This document shows positions 34,036-62,494 of a stretch of DNA of 64,000 nucleotides, piece after piece; within the stretch, counting starts at the first letter, position 1; the number at the start of each line of letters is the position of its first letter. The notes under the pieces were generated by a model, which was not told the DNA's origin, ran no database searches, and saw only the letters and a program-made list of their open reading frames with translations. This DNA is from Maribacter aquimaris (lineage in GTDB: Bacteria; Bacteroidota; Bacteroidia; Flavobacteriales; Flavobacteriaceae). The stretch spans positions 62,001 to 126,000 of the forward strand of contig NZ_JABTCF010000007.1 in assembly GCF_014596745.1 (NCBI RefSeq). Direction: 5' to 3'. A program made the translations under genes and the position numbers.

Positions 34036-34072
34036 CAAAAAAAAATCCCGATTTAAAATCGGGATTTTTTTT
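34036..34072 (-). terminator. Intrinsic terminator of the aromatic amino acid operon
   Basis: Arms AAAAATCCCGAT and ATCGGGATTTTT with a 4-base loop, flanked by A and T runs. It overlaps the last bases of the DAHP synthase/chorismate mutase gene and ends the operon on the minus strand. Confidence 0.85.
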
Positions 34073-35153
34073 AACCTTGCATTATCTTCTCTTGATGATT
34101 GATGGATTCTTGGTGAATGGCTTTAAACATTCTTAGTATAAACTCCTCACTCAATCCTTTAGACTCCCCTTCCAGAATCATACTTCCCAGAATAGAGTTC
34201 CATCGATTACTTTGAAGGATGGCAACATTCTTTTGCTTTTTAAGGCTCCCTATTCCATCAGAAATCTTCATTCGTTTCCCAAGCATATCGATCAATTGGT
34301 TATCGATGATATCAATTTGCGTTCTAAGGTTACTCAGCTTGCTATTGAATTCCGCTTCCTCATCGGTTTCCTTACGTATACGTAAGTCCTTCATGATCTG
34401 AACCAAGGCCTTTGGTGTTACTTGCTGCGCAGCATCACTCCATGCATTATCCGGATCGAAATGGGTTTCTACGATAAGTCCGTCAAAATTAAGATCCAAT
34501 GCGGTTTGGGAAACATCAAAGATCATATCCCTATTACCTGTAATATGCGAAGGATCATTAATCAACGGCAAATCCGGGAATTTCGTCTGTAGTTCAATGG
34601 CCAACTGCCATTCAGGAATATTTCTATATTTGGATTTTTCATAGGTAGAAAAGCCCCTATGGATCACACCCAACTTTTTAATGTTCTTACTATATAATCG
34701 TTCCACTGCCCCTAACCACAAAGACAAGTCTGGGTTAACCGGGTTTTTGACCAATACAATCTTATCAGTACCCTCTAGGGCATCTGCAATTTCCTGTACT
34801 ATAAATGGACTTACCGTTGAACGTGCACCTATCCATAATAAATCAATATCATGTTCCAAGGCCAATTCCACATGGGCTTTATTGGCAACCTCGGTAGCGG
34901 TCTTCAATCCTGTTTCTGCCTTTACCCGTTGTAGCCACTTAAGACCCAACGCCCCAACACCCTCAAAGTTGCCTGGTCGTGTTCTTGGTTTCCAAATACC
35001 GGCCCTAAAATAGTTTACATCGGTATCCTTAAGCTCGTGGGCTATTTTCAAGACTTGCTCTTCGGTCTCTGCGCTACATGGTCCTGCAATTACCAAAGGA
35101 TGATCTAGTCCCAAATCATCCAACCATGTTCTCATTTCTTTTGAATTCTCCAT
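34071..35153 (-). CDS. DAHP synthase-chorismate mutase (AroQ) fusion
   Basis: Bifunctional enzyme of 360 residues. The N-terminal part (about 1-265) is a DAHP synthase of the KDO8P-like class, with IAGPCSAETEEQ, FRAGIWKPRTRPGNFEG and NDPSHITGNRD, condensing PEP and erythrose 4-phosphate. The C-terminal part (about 270-360) is an all-helical type II chorismate mutase with LRTQIDIIDNQLIDMLGKRM. It covers the first step of the aromatic pathway and the branch point to prephenate. The fusion is common in Bacteroidota. Last gene of the attenuated aromatic operon. Confidence 0.93.
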   Translation of the reverse strand: MENSKEMRTWLDDLGLDHPLVIAGPCSAETEEQVLKIAHELKDTDVNYFRAGIWKPRTRPGNFEGVGALGLKWLQRVKAETGLKTATEVANKAHVELALEHDIDLLWIGARSTVSPFIVQEIADALEGTDKIVLVKNPVNPDLSLWLGAVERLYSKNIKKLGVIHRGFSTYEKSKYRNIPEWQLAIELQTKFPDLPLINDPSHITGNRDMIFDVSQTALDLNFDGLIVETHFDPDNAWSDAAQQVTPKALVQIMKDLRIRKETDEEAEFNSKLSNLRTQIDIIDNQLIDMLGKRMKISDGIGSLKKQKNVAILQSNRWNSILGSMILEGESKGLSEEFILRMFKAIHQESINHQEKIMQG

Positions 35154-35166
35154 TTTTACTTTCCTC

Positions 35167-36024
35167 TTATTTGTTCAAAGGTATTCCTTTTAATATTTCC
35201 TTTATTTTATTCGTATTGTTCATTTCATCGTAAATGCCCTCATAATCATCTTTGAGCAGCAATTGTTTAAAGGCCTCAAGATTTTCGATATACTCGTCCA
35301 AACTCTCAACCACATTCTCCTTATTCTGCTCAAAAATGGGTGCCCACATCGCCGGTGAACTTTTTGCCAATCGCACGGTACTTTCAAATCCACTTCCCGC
35401 CATGTCAAAGATATCGCGTTCATTTCTTTCCTTATCGATTACCGTCTTACCTAACATAAAAGAACTGATGTGTGATAAATGTGATACATAGGCAATATGC
35501 TTATCATGTGCCTCAGGGTTCATATATCTTATTCGCATACCAAGCTCCTGAAAAAGTCCCAAAGCCTTTTCCTGTAATTTAAACGCTGTTTTTTCAATCT
35601 CACAGATAATATTGGTCTTCCCTTGAAACAAATGATCGATAGCTGCGGCAGGACCAGAAAACTCTGTACCAGCAATAGGGTGGCAAGCTAAGAAATTTCT
35701 TCTTTTTGGATGATCGTCCAAAATTTTGCACAACGTCGCTTTTGTTGAACCCGCATCGAAGACCACACAATCATCATTCACTTGATCCAATATCCGTGGC
35801 AGCTCGGTCAGCATTGCATTTACCGGGATACCCACTATGACTACATCTGCCAAATGCAAATCATCATAACTAGCCTTATTATCGATCAAACCAAGTGCCA
35901 ACGCCTCTTCTAAATGTGATACATTGGTATCTACACCATGAATCGTGACTTCGGGGACCAGCCGTTTAATATCCTTGGCCATACTACCCCCGATCAAACC
36001 TACACCAATTACAAATACATTCAT
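35167..36024 (-). CDS. tyrA: Prephenate dehydrogenase
   Basis: NAD(P)-dependent oxidative decarboxylation of prephenate to 4-hydroxyphenylpyruvate on the tyrosine branch. It has 285 residues with the nucleotide motif GVGLIGGSMAKDI at the N terminus, HPIAGTEFSGP and SHLSHISSFML. No fused chorismate mutase or ACT domain is present. Start ATG at 36024, one base after the aminotransferase stop. Third gene of the aromatic operon. Confidence 0.93.
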   Translation of the reverse strand: MNVFVIGVGLIGGSMAKDIKRLVPEVTIHGVDTNVSHLEEALALGLIDNKASYDDLHLADVVIVGIPVNAMLTELPRILDQVNDDCVVFDAGSTKATLCKILDDHPKRRNFLACHPIAGTEFSGPAAAIDHLFQGKTNIICEIEKTAFKLQEKALGLFQELGMRIRYMNPEAHDKHIAYVSHLSHISSFMLGKTVIDKERNERDIFDMAGSGFESTVRLAKSSPAMWAPIFEQNKENVVESLDEYIENLEAFKQLLLKDDYEGIYDEMNNTNKIKEILKGIPLNK

Positions 36025-36025
36025 C

Positions 36026-37171
36026 TTAAAACCTTTCTAGTGCTTCTTTAATTTTTTCCTCTTTCACACAAAGTGAAAATCGAATATAACCCTCACCATT
36101 GCTTCCGAAAATCGTACCTGGAGCGATGAATATATTTTTTTCATCTAGTACATTATCAATAAAATCCTCAGAATCTGAAGCCCCTAGGGGTAATTTTGCC
36201 CAGACGAACATCCCAACAGCATTTTTGTCATAGGTACAATTCAATTTGTCAGCTAATTGCAACATCAACGCCTTCCTTTTTTGATATACCTTATCCAAAG
36301 CCCTATACCAATCATCACCACTTTTTAAAGCTGCAATGGCTCCTTTTTGAATACCATAGAACATGCCTGAGTCCATATTACTCTTTACTTTGAGGATGGC
36401 ATTGATATGTTCGGCATTACCCAACACCATACCTACGCGCCATCCGGCCATATTAAAAGTCTTGCTCAAGGAATTCAGTTCCAAGGTTACTTCCTTTGCC
36501 CCATCGATGGCCAAGATACTTGAAGGCTTTTTGTTAAGCACAAAACTATATGGGTTATCATTCACAAGAAGGATTCCATTGTCTTTTGCAAACTGGATCA
36601 ATCGTTTCAATTGGTCCTCATTGGCCAAAGCCCCAGTGGGCATGTGCGGGTAACTGACCCACATTAATTTCACTTTGGACAGATCTTGTTGCTGTAGGGT
36701 CTCCAAATCGGGAAACCAACCATTTTCCGCATTAAGATCATACTGCTTGGGTACCCCTCCGACCAATTTGGTGACCGAAGTATATGTAGGGTATCCTGGA
36801 TTAGGTATCAAAACCTCATCCCCAGCATTCAAAAAAGCCATACTGATATGCATAATTCCTTCCTTGGATCCCATAAGGGGTAATATCTCAGTGGTTGGAT
36901 CTGCAGACACCTCGAATTTCGATGCGTAAAAATCAGCAATCGCCTGACGCAATGCCGGTAGCCCTTGGTAACTCTGATACTGATGCGCGCCGGCATCGTC
37001 CATTGAATCCTTTATCGCCGTTAAAACCGCTTCAGAGGGGGCAAGATCCGGACTGCCGATTCCCATGTTTATTATAGGTTTACCTTCGGCAATAAGCCCA
37101 CGGACCTCCCTAAGTTTTTTTGAGAAGTAGTACTCCTCAACCGTTTGTAATCTATCCGCAGTACGAATCAT
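36026..37171 (-). CDS. PLP-dependent aminotransferase of the aromatic operon
   Basis: Class I/II aminotransferase of 381 residues. The PLP lysine is in SLSKTFNMAGWRVG (about residue 235), with NPGYPTY, WVSYPHMPTGA and DNPYSFV around the cofactor. The overall sequence resembles LL-DAP or aspartate-type aminotransferases. Its place between pheA and tyrA implies it transaminates phenylpyruvate, 4-hydroxyphenylpyruvate or prephenate, but the exact substrate cannot be read. It overlaps the pheA stop by four bases. Confidence 0.9.
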   Translation of the reverse strand: MIRTADRLQTVEEYYFSKKLREVRGLIAEGKPIINMGIGSPDLAPSEAVLTAIKDSMDDAGAHQYQSYQGLPALRQAIADFYASKFEVSADPTTEILPLMGSKEGIMHISMAFLNAGDEVLIPNPGYPTYTSVTKLVGGVPKQYDLNAENGWFPDLETLQQQDLSKVKLMWVSYPHMPTGALANEDQLKRLIQFAKDNGILLVNDNPYSFVLNKKPSSILAIDGAKEVTLELNSLSKTFNMAGWRVGMVLGNAEHINAILKVKSNMDSGMFYGIQKGAIAALKSGDDWYRALDKVYQKRKALMLQLADKLNCTYDKNAVGMFVWAKLPLGASDSEDFIDNVLDEKNIFIAPGTIFGSNGEGYIRFSLCVKEEKIKEALERF

Positions 37172-37995
37172 ATTCTAGCATTTTTATATTCCCCCAAAAC
37201 CCTAAAGTCATCTGACATGATTTCTAAAAGCGCCTTGGCCTTTGCAAAATTATTATATTCATCGAAGGTCACATCAACAAAAAAGGCATATTTCCATGGA
37301 GTTTCAATAATGGGCAATGACTGTATTTTGGTCAAATTCATGTTACAATCGCTCATCACATTCAACACTGTTGCGAGACTTCCTCTTTTATGATCGGTCA
37401 CAAAGCGGACCGAAGCCTTGTTTATTTCAGTTATAGGCCACTCCTTATTGGTGGTCTTTACAATAATAAATCGGGTCGAATTGTTCTTTATCGTCTGAAT
37501 ATCCGGAGCAATGATTTCCAAATCATATAAATCGGCAGCCACTTTGGGAGCTATGGCCGCAACACCCTTTAAGTGATTATCATGTATTTGCTTGGCGGTC
37601 TCTGCGGTATCAACATCCTCGACCACTTTTATATGGGGATATGTCTTTAAAAACTCACGACATTGCAGCAGGGCCATCGGGTGGGAACGGACTTCATGAA
37701 TATCCTCGATCGACTGTCCCTTTAAGGTCATAAGATTATGGTGGATGTTCAAATAATACTCCCCAATAATATGGAGTTTCTTATCATTAACAAGTGCGTA
37801 ATTGGGGATGATTGACCCCGCAATCGAATTTTCAATGGCCATTATCCCTTTATCCGCTGTCGCATCAAGCAGGCAGTCCACCAAGCCATGAAAGGACATA
37901 CACTCCACTAAATCAACCTCCTCCTTAAAATAATCCAGGGCCACCTGATGATGGTTAGACCCCTTGATTCCTTGTATGGCTATCTTTAAACCCAT
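37168..37995 (-). CDS. pheA: Prephenate dehydratase with ACT domain
   Basis: Converts prephenate to phenylpyruvate, the committed phenylalanine step. It has 275 residues: the dehydratase domain (about 1-180, with IAIQGIKGS, AIENSIAGSI and the catalytic NNSTRF) then an ACT domain (about 195-275). The Phe-binding ESRP motif of the ACT domain is replaced by QSLP, so feedback inhibition by Phe may be weakened. First structural gene of the aromatic operon, 41 bases after an attenuator terminator that ends a Phe/Tyr-rich leader. Confidence 0.94.
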   Translation of the reverse strand: MGLKIAIQGIKGSNHHQVALDYFKEEVDLVECMSFHGLVDCLLDATADKGIMAIENSIAGSIIPNYALVNDKKLHIIGEYYLNIHHNLMTLKGQSIEDIHEVRSHPMALLQCREFLKTYPHIKVVEDVDTAETAKQIHDNHLKGVAAIAPKVAADLYDLEIIAPDIQTIKNNSTRFIIVKTTNKEWPITEINKASVRFVTDHKRGSLATVLNVMSDCNMNLTKIQSLPIIETPWKYAFFVDVTFDEYNNFAKAKALLEIMSDDFRVLGEYKNARI

Positions 37996-38030: not shown

Positions 38031-38058
38031 AAAAAAAGTCCCGTTTTTCACGGGACTT
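38031..38058 (-). terminator. Attenuator terminator of the pheA leader
   Basis: On the minus strand AAGTCCCGT and ACGGGACTT form a perfect 9-base stem with a 5-base loop, followed immediately by seven T. It lies before pheA, not after a gene, and so is a conditional terminator. Confidence 0.85.
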
Positions 38059-38181
38059 AATGTTATATATAATGTTTGCAATACACTACAACAGTCCCGT
38101 CTCCCTCTTATAAAAGAAGAAAAAATAAAAACCGTTAAAGAAATACTGCTTTGTCATTGTCATGTAAATCTGGGACTAAGG
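38036..38181 (-). promoter_or_regulatory. Phe/Tyr transcription attenuator
   Basis: Four complementary segments on the minus-strand transcript: segment 1 with AGUCCC (38172-38177), segment 2 ACGGGACU (38093-38100) overlapping the end of the leader peptide, segment 3 AGUCCCGU (38050-38057), and segment 4 ACGGGACU (38037-38044) plus a U run. Pairing 3:4 is the terminator; 2:3 (8 base pairs) is the antiterminator; 1:2 can pair 6-7 bases. A ribosome stalled on Phe/Tyr codons leaves segment 2 free and lets the operon be transcribed; one reaching the stop covers segment 2 and allows termination. This is inferred from sequence and has the classic logic of pheA attenuators. Confidence 0.85.
38086..38163 (-). 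CDS. Phe/Tyr-rich attenuation leader peptide
   Basis: A 25-codon reading frame from ATG 38163 (a second ATG is at 38157) to TAG at 38086. Its core YFFNGFYFFFFY has ten aromatic residues of twelve: seven Phe and three Tyr in the whole peptide. The last codons overlap segment 2 of the attenuator. The density of Phe/Tyr codons immediately before a terminator that precedes pheA and tyrA is very unlikely by chance. It is functionally like enterobacterial PheL, but includes Tyr, which fits an operon serving both amino acids. Confidence 0.85.
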   Translation of the reverse strand: MTMTKQYFFNGFYFFFFYKRETGLL

Positions 38182-38201
38182 TAATTATTAAATTTAAAAA
38201 A

Positions 38202-38209
38202 CAAATTCA
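38202..38209 (-). promoter_or_regulatory. Weak candidate promoter of the pheA leader
   Basis: The minus strand reads TGAATTTG, one mismatch from TAnnTTTG. A start near 38196 would include all four attenuator segments. No -33 TTG at proper spacing is seen, so this is tentative. Confidence 0.25.
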
Positions 38210-38280: not shown

Positions 38281-39378
38281 TTATTGGGAATCAGCAAGGA
38301 AAATATCGATCATTGCATCCAAGACATCCTGAATACGAGGGTTTGTACAATTCGTCAGAATGGAAAAAACCATTTGTTCATTAGGGTAAATAAAGAGATT
38401 GGAGTAACCGCCCACGCCATTCCCTACATGACCAAAATAAGGTCTTCCCTTTTTATCCTCACTAACCTGCCAACCCAAGCCATAATAGGTAGCCTTTCCA
38501 TTTATCTTTTCGGTAGTGAGAAATTCGGAAAATACAGCATCGTGCAAAATCTCCTTCTTCAGATACGCCTGTCCGAACTTGGCCATATCATCGGAAGTTG
38601 ACAAATATCCACCACCAGCCAGTTTATAGGTGTTGTTTACAGGCATCGCTTTATAAAATCCTGATTTTCTTCTTGAATAGAAGGTAGCCAGATGGTCGTT
38701 CTTCCCATCTGTCATTTCAATTGCACTAGATTCGGAACCCTCACCAAAAGTATGGGTCAACCCAAAAGGCCCAAGTACCTTTTCGTCAACATAGTCCCCA
38801 AAGGGTACCCCACTTGCTTCTTGCATGGCCAAAGAAATCAATACCCAATCATAACTATTGTAATGATAATCGGTCCCTGGTTTAAAAAGTAGGTCATCAT
38901 TCTTGAATATCCGTAGGCTATCCTTTATGGAGTACGGTTCGTTCAAACCGTATTCCTTTCCTTTATACCCACGAATCCCCGCCGTATGGCTTGCCAACTG
39001 TCGTATAGTGAAATCATATTCCTTCTTCGGGAAATAAGGAACATAGTCATATAGGGAAGCATCCAAGTCAATAGCCCCCTCCTTAACCATTTGGGCCAAG
39101 GCGGTCGCTGCAATATTTTTGGAAACACTGGCAATCCTGAAGATGGTTCGTTTCGGATCTACCTTTACCCGTTTCCCTACATCCGCATAACCATATCCCT
39201 TTTGAAATAAAACCTCTCCTTTCTCAAGTACCGTGATGGCGAGCCCTGGAATCTTTTTTTCAATTATAAGGCCGTTGAGCAGGTCATCTACCCCAGTTAA
39301 TCCCTCCAAAGTTGGATGTAGTTGCTTTTCACTTTTGGAAGTGAAAAGGTCTTTCAGATATGTGATAAAGGATTTCAA
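38281..39378 (-). CDS. Serine hydrolase of the beta-lactamase/PBP4 family
   Basis: Protein of 365 residues with the penicillin-binding fold: SxxK as SVSK near residue 84, a Y-x-N-like element read as YHYNS, and GHVGNGVGGYSN near the C terminus. Such proteins are esterases, D-aminopeptidases or beta-lactamase-like enzymes; the substrate is not readable. The first possible start is TTG at 39378. No signal peptide is evident, so it may be cytoplasmic or have a misplaced start. It ends just before the pheA leader. Confidence 0.82.
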   Translation of the reverse strand: MKSFITYLKDLFTSKSEKQLHPTLEGLTGVDDLLNGLIIEKKIPGLAITVLEKGEVLFQKGYGYADVGKRVKVDPKRTIFRIASVSKNIAATALAQMVKEGAIDLDASLYDYVPYFPKKEYDFTIRQLASHTAGIRGYKGKEYGLNEPYSIKDSLRIFKNDDLLFKPGTDYHYNSYDWVLISLAMQEASGVPFGDYVDEKVLGPFGLTHTFGEGSESSAIEMTDGKNDHLATFYSRRKSGFYKAMPVNNTYKLAGGGYLSTSDDMAKFGQAYLKKEILHDAVFSEFLTTEKINGKATYYGLGWQVSEDKKGRPYFGHVGNGVGGYSNLFIYPNEQMVFSILTNCTNPRIQDVLDAMIDIFLADSQ

Positions 39379-46924: not shown

Positions 46925-47036
46925 TACTACAAAAACCACACATTGCAAAGCCTGACCATTTACAGGTATGAAAATGGCAACGCACTACTTTTATTTATCG
47001 ATCAAGGAAAGGTGTAAGACAGATGTCTTTATTAGG

Positions 47037-47151
47037 GTTATCTTTCACGCCTTAGCTGTGATAGAATGTAGCACCTTCTTACCCCGTTATACAGTAGGGA
47101 AAGGGTTGCCAAGGTTTCATTGGGTCTAGTCCCTCCGCCTTTCTTGATAAC
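47037..47151 (-). promoter_or_regulatory. SAM-I (S-box) riboswitch upstream of metH
   Basis: The minus strand shows the S-box core: P1 strands GTTATC and GATAAC, the GGCGGAGGGACTAGACCC segment, ATGAAACCTTGGCAACC, and AAGGTGCTACATTC. This is the consensus of the SAM-I aptamer, which binds S-adenosylmethionine. It lies 244 bases before the metH start, and the intervening leader could hold the expression platform; a hairpin AAGACA/TGTCTT follows the aptamer but lacks a good T run, so the output mechanism is open. Confidence 0.93.
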
Positions 47152-47178
47152 TATATCAACATAGTAAAGAACTCGTTG

Positions 47179-60820: not shown

Positions 60821-60826
60821 CGTTTC

Positions 60827-60961
60827 GTTATCTATTCTTGCCTAAATTAAAGGATACTGAAGACGTTCAGCCTCAAGATAGAATTTAGCACCTTCTTTGC
60901 ACAGGAGGCAAAGGGTTGCTAAGGCTTCACAGGGTCTATTCCCTCCACCTTTCTTGATAAC
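60827..60961 (-). promoter_or_regulatory. SAM-I (S-box) riboswitch upstream of metY
   Basis: The minus strand has P1 strands GTTATC and GATAAC, GGTGGAGGGAATAGACCC, GTGAAGCCTTAGCAACC and AAGGTGCTAAATTC, the SAM-I aptamer pattern. It should repress metY and the linked fusion and MetZ-like genes when SAM is abundant. It is the second S-box in the window and differs from the metH copy in its variable stems. Confidence 0.94.
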
Positions 60962-60991
60962 AATTCAATATGTGTTTGAACTTTTGAACGG

Positions 60992-62295: not shown

Positions 62296-62390
62296 TTTTA
62301 CAAAAATAATTAGGAGGAATAACAGAAAGATTGCGAAAAGGGCGAATATGCTGAATAAAATCAGCTATCACTGCTTTAGCATTTTTACAA

Positions 62391-62411
62391 TACCGAACTT
62401 GTTCAGTATCC
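62391..62411. repeat. Intergenic palindrome (GAACTTGTT type)
   Basis: TACCGAACTTGTTCAGTA resembles the element at 42470-42490. It lies in the metK leader. Confidence 0.45.
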
Positions 62412-62429
62412 AATTCCCTTAGGAACTAG

Positions 62430-62450
62430 GCCCTAACGTGAATTTAGGGC
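62430..62450. repeat. Hairpin in the metK leader
   Basis: Arms GCCCTAA and TTAGGGC enclose a 7-base loop within the 5' leader of metK. No T run follows, so it is not a terminator. The rest of the 62296-62775 gap shows only the promoter site below; I see no gene between 62503 and 62775. Confidence 0.45.
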
Positions 62451-62494
62451 TACGAGGTTGCAATCAGTCAAATCTTTCCTCTTAAGATTGGGGA

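Follow-up and report, generated by a model that had tools for sequence, protein, structure and literature searches.

A ribosome-mediated transcription attenuator very probably controls the operon of pheA, an aminotransferase gene, tyrA and a fused gene for DAHP synthase and chorismate mutase (CM) in the window, the 64-kb stretch of DNA that we analysed. Its support is conservation, covariation, spacing and computed switching. Upstream of pheA we found three of the features by which an attenuator is recognised: (i) a short ORF rich in codons for the product of the operon; (ii) control codons that lie, for a ribosome footprint of about 12-13 nt, one footprint away from the antiterminator; and (iii) an intrinsic terminator together with a mutually exclusive antiterminator that shares one of its arms. 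The original prediction of ribosome-mediated attenuation is strongly supported, as the leader, the antiterminator (segments 2 and 3, stem 2:3) and the terminator (segments 3 and 4, stem 3:4) are conserved and covary in relatives.

The window is part of a 4.86-Mb genome. Its PheA shares 98% identity with the Maribacter polysiphoniae protein, and the genome is therefore probably that of a Maribacter species. The minus strand carries, in turn, a predicted promoter box, the leader ORF, a terminator and the genes for pheA, aminotransferase, tyrA and DAHP synthase/CM (Table 1); domain matches bear out the gene order that had been read from the translations, with a weak match for the ACT domain of PheA (20.9 bits, cut-off 27). 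The aminotransferase gene adjoins pheA on the same strand in 80/80 related loci (the best 80 of 571 stretches). We found no second DAHP synthase in the genome of the window: beyond this gene, PF00793 matches only a KDO8P synthase, and PF01474 has no match.

Table 1. Elements of the pheA attenuator and its operon, in window coordinates.
Feature	Position	Strand	Basis
TTTG, candidate -33 element (about -34 to -31)	38202..38205	-	sequence; variable in relatives by eye
TACCTTAG, predicted -7 promoter box, TAnnTTTG consensus, -12 to -5	38176..38183	-	columns in relatives; accessible part of PMC9723704
AGTCCC, originally proposed segment 1, predicted -6 to -1, judged outside the switch	38172..38177	-	2/80; no covariation
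Leader ORF MTKQYFFNGFYFFFFYKRETGLL, 23 codons + stop; in-frame alternative ATG 38163	38086..38157	-	related ORF in 80/80 loci (best 80 of 571)
Conserved segment 1 AACGGUUUU, codons 8-10, pairs with GGGACUGUU	38128..38136	-	RNAalifold consensus
Segment 2 ACGGGACUGUU, end of leader ORF, antiterminator 5' arm	38090..38100	-	2:3 paired in 97.0% of cells
Segment 3 AAGUCCCGU, antiterminator 3' arm and terminator 5' arm	38050..38058	-	sequence, covariation
Segment 4 ACGGGACUU and U tract, intrinsic terminator	38031..38044	-	3:4 paired in 97.8% of cells
pheA, prephenate dehydratase (PDT)	37168..37995	-	PF00800, E 2.5e-57
Class I/II aminotransferase	36026..37171	-	PF00155
tyrA, prephenate dehydrogenase	35167..36024	-	PF02153, PF20463
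Fused DAHP synthase/chorismate mutase	34071..35153	-	PF00793 + PF01817

A leader frame of 25 codons had been described, and it is present on the minus strand: read from the ATG at 38163, it encodes MTMTKQYFFNGFYFFFFYKRETGLL in 25 codons followed by a stop. Because this first ATG is absent in the closest relative (L014), we take the inner ATG at 38157 as the start common to relatives, which gives 23 codons. Chance does not readily produce such a frame. When the 350 nt upstream of pheA were shuffled with dinucleotides preserved, 0 of 2000 shuffles matched the 10 aromatics in 12 codons of the ORF (the best reached 8), and 0 of 2000 yielded 7 aromatics in 12 with a subsequent terminator. The folding z of the 152-nt leader is -4.3, with none of 200 shuffles equally low.

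Loci of named genomes were fetched by their PheA, and from 571 confirmed stretches the best 80 were retained. In all 80, pheA is preceded by a short aromatic-rich ORF and, after it, a terminator. The ORF has exactly 23 codons in 71 of 81 leaders (the window and the same best 80 of 571 loci). All 70 unique ORFs of this length have Phe at codons 12, 14 and 15 and an aromatic residue at codon 7 (Trp in 37, Tyr in 19, Phe in 14). Codon 7 thus varies among TGG, TAT, TTT and TTC without ceasing to be aromatic, a sign that selection acts on the residue it encodes rather than on a U-rich RNA. A few ORFs have Thr, Ser, Asn or His in place of an aromatic at codons 5, 6, 10, 11 or 13.

The terminator was found as originally described, a perfect 9-bp hairpin (38058-38036, minus strand) running into seven T (38037-38031). 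For the stems we used alignment A1, which comprises 80 sequences (the window plus 79 loci, after removal of one exact duplicate). On these, RNAalifold pairs codons 8-10 with the end of the ORF (stem 1:2, which includes a small inner hairpin) and forms the terminator 3:4. In the same sequences, 3:4 has four pairs changed on both sides, where shuffles average 1.7, and 2:3 has three, where they average 0.4 and 3 of 500 reach that count; the shuffles ignore kinship. Further pair types do not stand out (27/500 shuffles for 2:3 and 325/500 for 3:4). With 2:3 slid by +1 as a control, 7 cells are changed on both sides versus 6 observed, but far fewer cells (51.8%) are paired.

The bases of segment 3 are common to both stems, 2:3 and 3:4. 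In six sequences, a change from G-C-G to A-U-A is matched across segments 2, 3 and 4, at three different positions; L052, and five sequences at another position, retain G-U in 2:3 instead. Over 154 leaders, segment 2 fits the terminator arm of its own leader better than a reassigned one (mean 18.2 versus 15.4, 0/2000 shuffles), as it does in 38 diverse loci (18.1 versus 13.8, 0/2000 shuffles). Alignment with relatives, which had been proposed as the check on the attenuator, therefore finds the short frame conserved and both stems covarying.

The leader had been described as four segments of alternating AGUCCC and GGGACU. Segments 2, 3 and 4 are real; the first copy does not hold, being present in 2 of the 80 aligned sequences, one of which is the window. 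Its stem with segment 2 is paired in 63.5% of cells, has no covariation beyond shuffles and lies inside the predicted promoter. The first two bases of this AGTCCC are the last two of the TACCTTAG box, whose columns read TTAG or TTTG in 80/80 aligned sequences, with an initial TA in 77/80. The conserved box, TACnTTAG, overlaps the upstream AGTCCC, and one relative (L054) carries TACATTTG, an exact TAnnTTTG. That motif is the promoter consensus of Flavobacterium psychrophilum at -12 to -5, as given in the accessible part of PMC9723704. On this numbering the predicted +1 is 38171, so that the upstream AGTCCC would fall at -6 to -1 and is probably not transcribed.

The one-motif, four-segment design is accordingly not supported: the upstream AGUCCC falls in the predicted promoter, and it is leader codons 8-10 with which segment 2 has its conserved pairing. 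A segment 1 located inside the control region is the ordinary arrangement of attenuators. The conserved 1:2 stem is paired in 94.4% of cells and has no covariation beyond shuffles. Its outer extension, in which CAGUAUU pairs with bases past the stop codon, is paired in 71.9% of cells, with 22 cells changed on both sides, a count reached by 3/500 shuffles; among the slid controls of this extension, one pairs in 70.2% of cells and another also has 22 such cells.

From the arrangement of these elements we infer a start site, ribosome stalling and a response to amino-acid shortage. Transcription would begin near 38171. A freely translating ribosome would arrive at the stop codon and cover segment 2, and the 3:4 terminator would form. 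A ribosome stalled at a codon for Phe or Tyr, or in relatives for Trp as well, would leave segment 2 free; 2:3 would then pair before segment 4 is synthesised, and RNA polymerase would read through.

The spacing of the leaders suits such a switch. A ribosome covers about 12-13 nt past the first base of the codon in its A site. Counted from its first base, the last core aromatic codon stands 12-14 nt upstream of segment 2 in 115 of the 154 leaders, and 10-17 nt upstream in 149; the interval between segment 2 and the stop codon is more variable in the wider leader set. We masked the ribosome footprint and folded the nascent RNA up to segment 3. At a lead of 12 nt, 2:3 is free with the ribosome on each of three core codons (the first, the middle and the last but one) and blocked 2-3 codons past the core in 146/154 leaders; across leads of 10-16 nt, 140-146 of the 154 switch in this manner. 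A ribosome placed on the final core codon itself leaves 2:3 free in 133/154 leaders at a lead of 12, in 84 at 14 and in 23 at 16. The computed switch point of the window lies between Tyr16 and Lys17. A ribosome on the stop codon blocks 2:3 in 146/154 leaders, and the terminator exceeds 0.5 in the full RNA in 154/154. In the remaining 8, including L103 and L112 of other families, 2:3 is still free; there the ribosome may stop or slow earlier.

At equilibrium, the terminator predominates in the full RNA of the window wherever the ribosome stands (0.95-1.00), and of seven leaders folded in this way L097 alone clearly departs from that preference. Antitermination must therefore be kinetic, as it is in known attenuators. 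In nascent RNA free of a ribosome, 2:3 falls below 0.5 in 59/154 leaders and stands at 0.99 in the window. Since the 1:2 stem has no covariation beyond shuffles and 2:3 is low in only these 59, a protector role of the modelled 1:2 hairpin is uncertain.

We weighed three other explanations of the leader. One is that the hairpin is a mere terminator of the upstream gene and the U-rich ORF an effect of base composition. AT-rich DNA does yield Phe and Tyr codons, and a gene of the beta-lactamase family (PF00144), on the same strand as pheA, ends at 38281. However, a match to that gene at any place in the locus occurs in 24 of 73 full-length loci, whereas the leader is in 80/80 (again the best 80 of 571), and the predicted promoter box lies in between. 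With the shuffles (0/2000), the exchange of Trp, Tyr and Phe at codon 7 and the covariation of 2:3 also against it, we find this explanation scarcely credible. Another possibility is an element that works independently of the ribosome, such as a riboswitch, or a T-box-like or protein-dependent element using the same alternative stems, because such stems by themselves are no proof of control by a ribosome. No Rfam family matches the leader at gathering in the window or at 20 other loci. What is conserved here is a reading frame, with ATG columns at least 90% identical in the 80 aligned sequences; codon 7 stays aromatic despite its base changes, and the spacing suits a ribosome. We regard a ribosome-independent element as highly improbable.

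Stalling might also be brought about by nascent-peptide arrest, in which the leader peptide and a free aromatic amino acid bound to the ribosome, not uncharged tRNA, halt translation. In TnaC, a free amino acid in the ribosome and the leader peptide lead to stalling in this way. The good conservation of YF(W/Y/F)NGFYFYFFF inside the Maribacter-like clade would fit such a role for the peptide. Across clades, however, the peptide differs (NNWFYFFF, WQGFYFYFYFF, TYFNFWYFYF) and its aromatic richness is what is kept, while the conservation of N-G coincides with the 1:2 pairing. Arrest of this kind would also be expected to turn the operon on when the amino acid is plentiful, the opposite of what a biosynthetic operon calls for, and we consider it very unlikely.

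Phe and Tyr codons both occur in 154/154 leaders (chosen for at least 7 aromatics in 12), in agreement with the joint Phe/Tyr codon content first noticed in the window. Trp codons occur in 43/81 Maribacter-like leaders, in 45/73 of the wider set and in 3/10 from other families; the leader of the window has none. With the single DAHP synthase that was found, all three aromatics would depend on the pheA operon, which would explain the Trp codons. Leaders that bear Trp codons would then sense Trp as well.

To assess distribution, we sampled 70 genomes of the family, each with a completeness of at least 90%; pheA is present in 60. Leader and terminator are present in 58 of these 60: 55 by a scan of the 500 nt upstream of pheA, plus the window, G005 and L149. 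The ATG of the L149 leader lies 655 nt upstream of pheA, behind tandem repeats and beyond the scan, and was revealed by a search with RNA model R1; by eye, units of about 120 nt in tandem (1000-1400 of L149) separate the attenuator from pheA. No leader was seen in the family genomes of L162 and of L168, the latter with 373 nt of upstream sequence only. We rejected the tally of R1 itself (a match at E 0.01 in 114/119 family genomes) as a distribution count, because weak matches are unreliable. Three secondary R1 matches were opened: L221 and L222 resemble ordinary terminators, and L223 stands before an ilvD-like gene.

A phylum sample of 90 genomes, also at least 90% complete, gave a PheA match in 79. 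The leader is present in 9/9 genomes of the same family, in 0/1 of the same order and in 8/9 from other families of the class, L101 being without it. Among other members of the phylum, 41 of the 60 with a PheA match were examined and 2 have it; the 39 leaderless PheA matches there are 30-37% identical and may not carry the same operon. As an opposite-strand control, 0 of 117 upstream stretches reached 7 aromatics in 12 with a terminator. Leader and terminator are thus widespread across a large bacterial group in which they are little described. It is quite possible, if not quite probable, that a class-wide attenuator of Bacteroidota senses Phe, Tyr and Trp together, gates the cell's only DAHP synthase and keeps its control codons one footprint from the antiterminator.

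Other leaders and riboswitches came to light in the same material. Before hisG in the genome of the window (L213, 1195-1310), a leader MKNQNTHHHFYTGSQAR followed by a terminator, both read by eye, is a candidate His attenuator; this His-rich leader has no Rfam match up to E 0.5. Before trpE in that genome (L214, 1305-1421), RF01692 scores 68.2 bits (gathering 49) on a leader with a Trp-Trp-Trp peptide. The presence of a Trp leader and a His-rich leader in the same genome counts in favour of the pheA attenuator. In another family genome, L223 carries on its minus strand a leader-like ORF, MNKSTLKIIFNVIVVIDAGRHGMV, and a terminator (by eye), a candidate Ile/Val attenuator; its downstream gene is called ilvD-like by resemblance alone. 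We discarded an ilvD attenuator in the genome of the window, where the 430 nt before either copy contain no terminator, and a leader before the thrA-like ORF of the window (frame open to 59355), where the 480 nt scanned contain none. Two SAM (S-box) riboswitches (60825-60963 and 47035-47153) score above gathering on the minus strand of the window, and a SAM-II riboswitch (62366-62487, minus strand) scores 49 bits against a gathering threshold of 44, so that two SAM riboswitch families occur inside one 64-kb stretch.

The pheA attenuator offers a concrete model of how aromatic amino-acid synthesis may be regulated in Flavobacteriaceae and related families. To our knowledge, initiation by Shine-Dalgarno sequences is largely absent from Bacteroidota at large. 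Ribosome-mediated attenuation requires a ribosome close behind RNA polymerase, and these leaders therefore make transcription-translation coupling directly testable in bacteria without Shine-Dalgarno sequences. F. psychrophilum is described as one such bacterium in the accessible part of PMC9723704. If the class-wide Phe/Tyr/Trp attenuator proves true, it would mean tight coupling in bacteria that largely do without Shine-Dalgarno initiation.

Among known systems, the enterobacterial pheA leader (RF01859, Phe_leader) is alike in its Phe-rich peptide, its alternative stems and the intrinsic terminator before pheA. RF01859 scores 25.4 bits on the window leader, short of its gathering threshold of 55, and there is therefore no evidence of common descent. 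Unlike the enterobacterial leader, the one described here has Tyr and often Trp codons, and its operon also includes tyrA and DAHP synthase. Bacteroid-trp RNA (RF01692) is, like the leader described here, an RNA of Bacteroidetes, described in Rfam as a peptide leader and listed in a table of PMC2864571 (as seen in part of that source); it differs in serving the Trp operon and in sequence, and it does not match the pheA leader at gathering or at E up to 10. The pheA leader is a good candidate for a new Rfam family.

Closest by position is a structured 5' element that precedes pheA in F. psychrophilum, found also in other genera of Flavobacteriaceae (PMC9723704, 2021), which has the same gene position and no Rfam hit; we liken the two by position and by the description in the accessible part of that paper, which also speaks of 'strong clues' that leader peptides attenuate amino-acid operons. 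The supposition that a pheA attenuator was undescribed in this lineage therefore stands in part: a structured element before pheA had been reported, whereas the peptide, the stems and the wider distribution given here do not appear in that part of the paper. In the portions accessible to us, PMC7366714 mentions leader-like sORFs in Bacteroides, PMC4833913 reports leader genes across several phyla including Bacteroidetes with pheA unnamed, and PMC8305728 names attenuation once, for enterobacteria. The open-access literature, as far as these portions reach, yielded no fuller description of a pheA leader, and an earlier prediction in Lopatovskaya 2010 (cited in PMC4833913) is possible. The attenuator of the pheA operon is of a classical kind; its class-wide spread, its spacing and its Trp codons are the newer parts.
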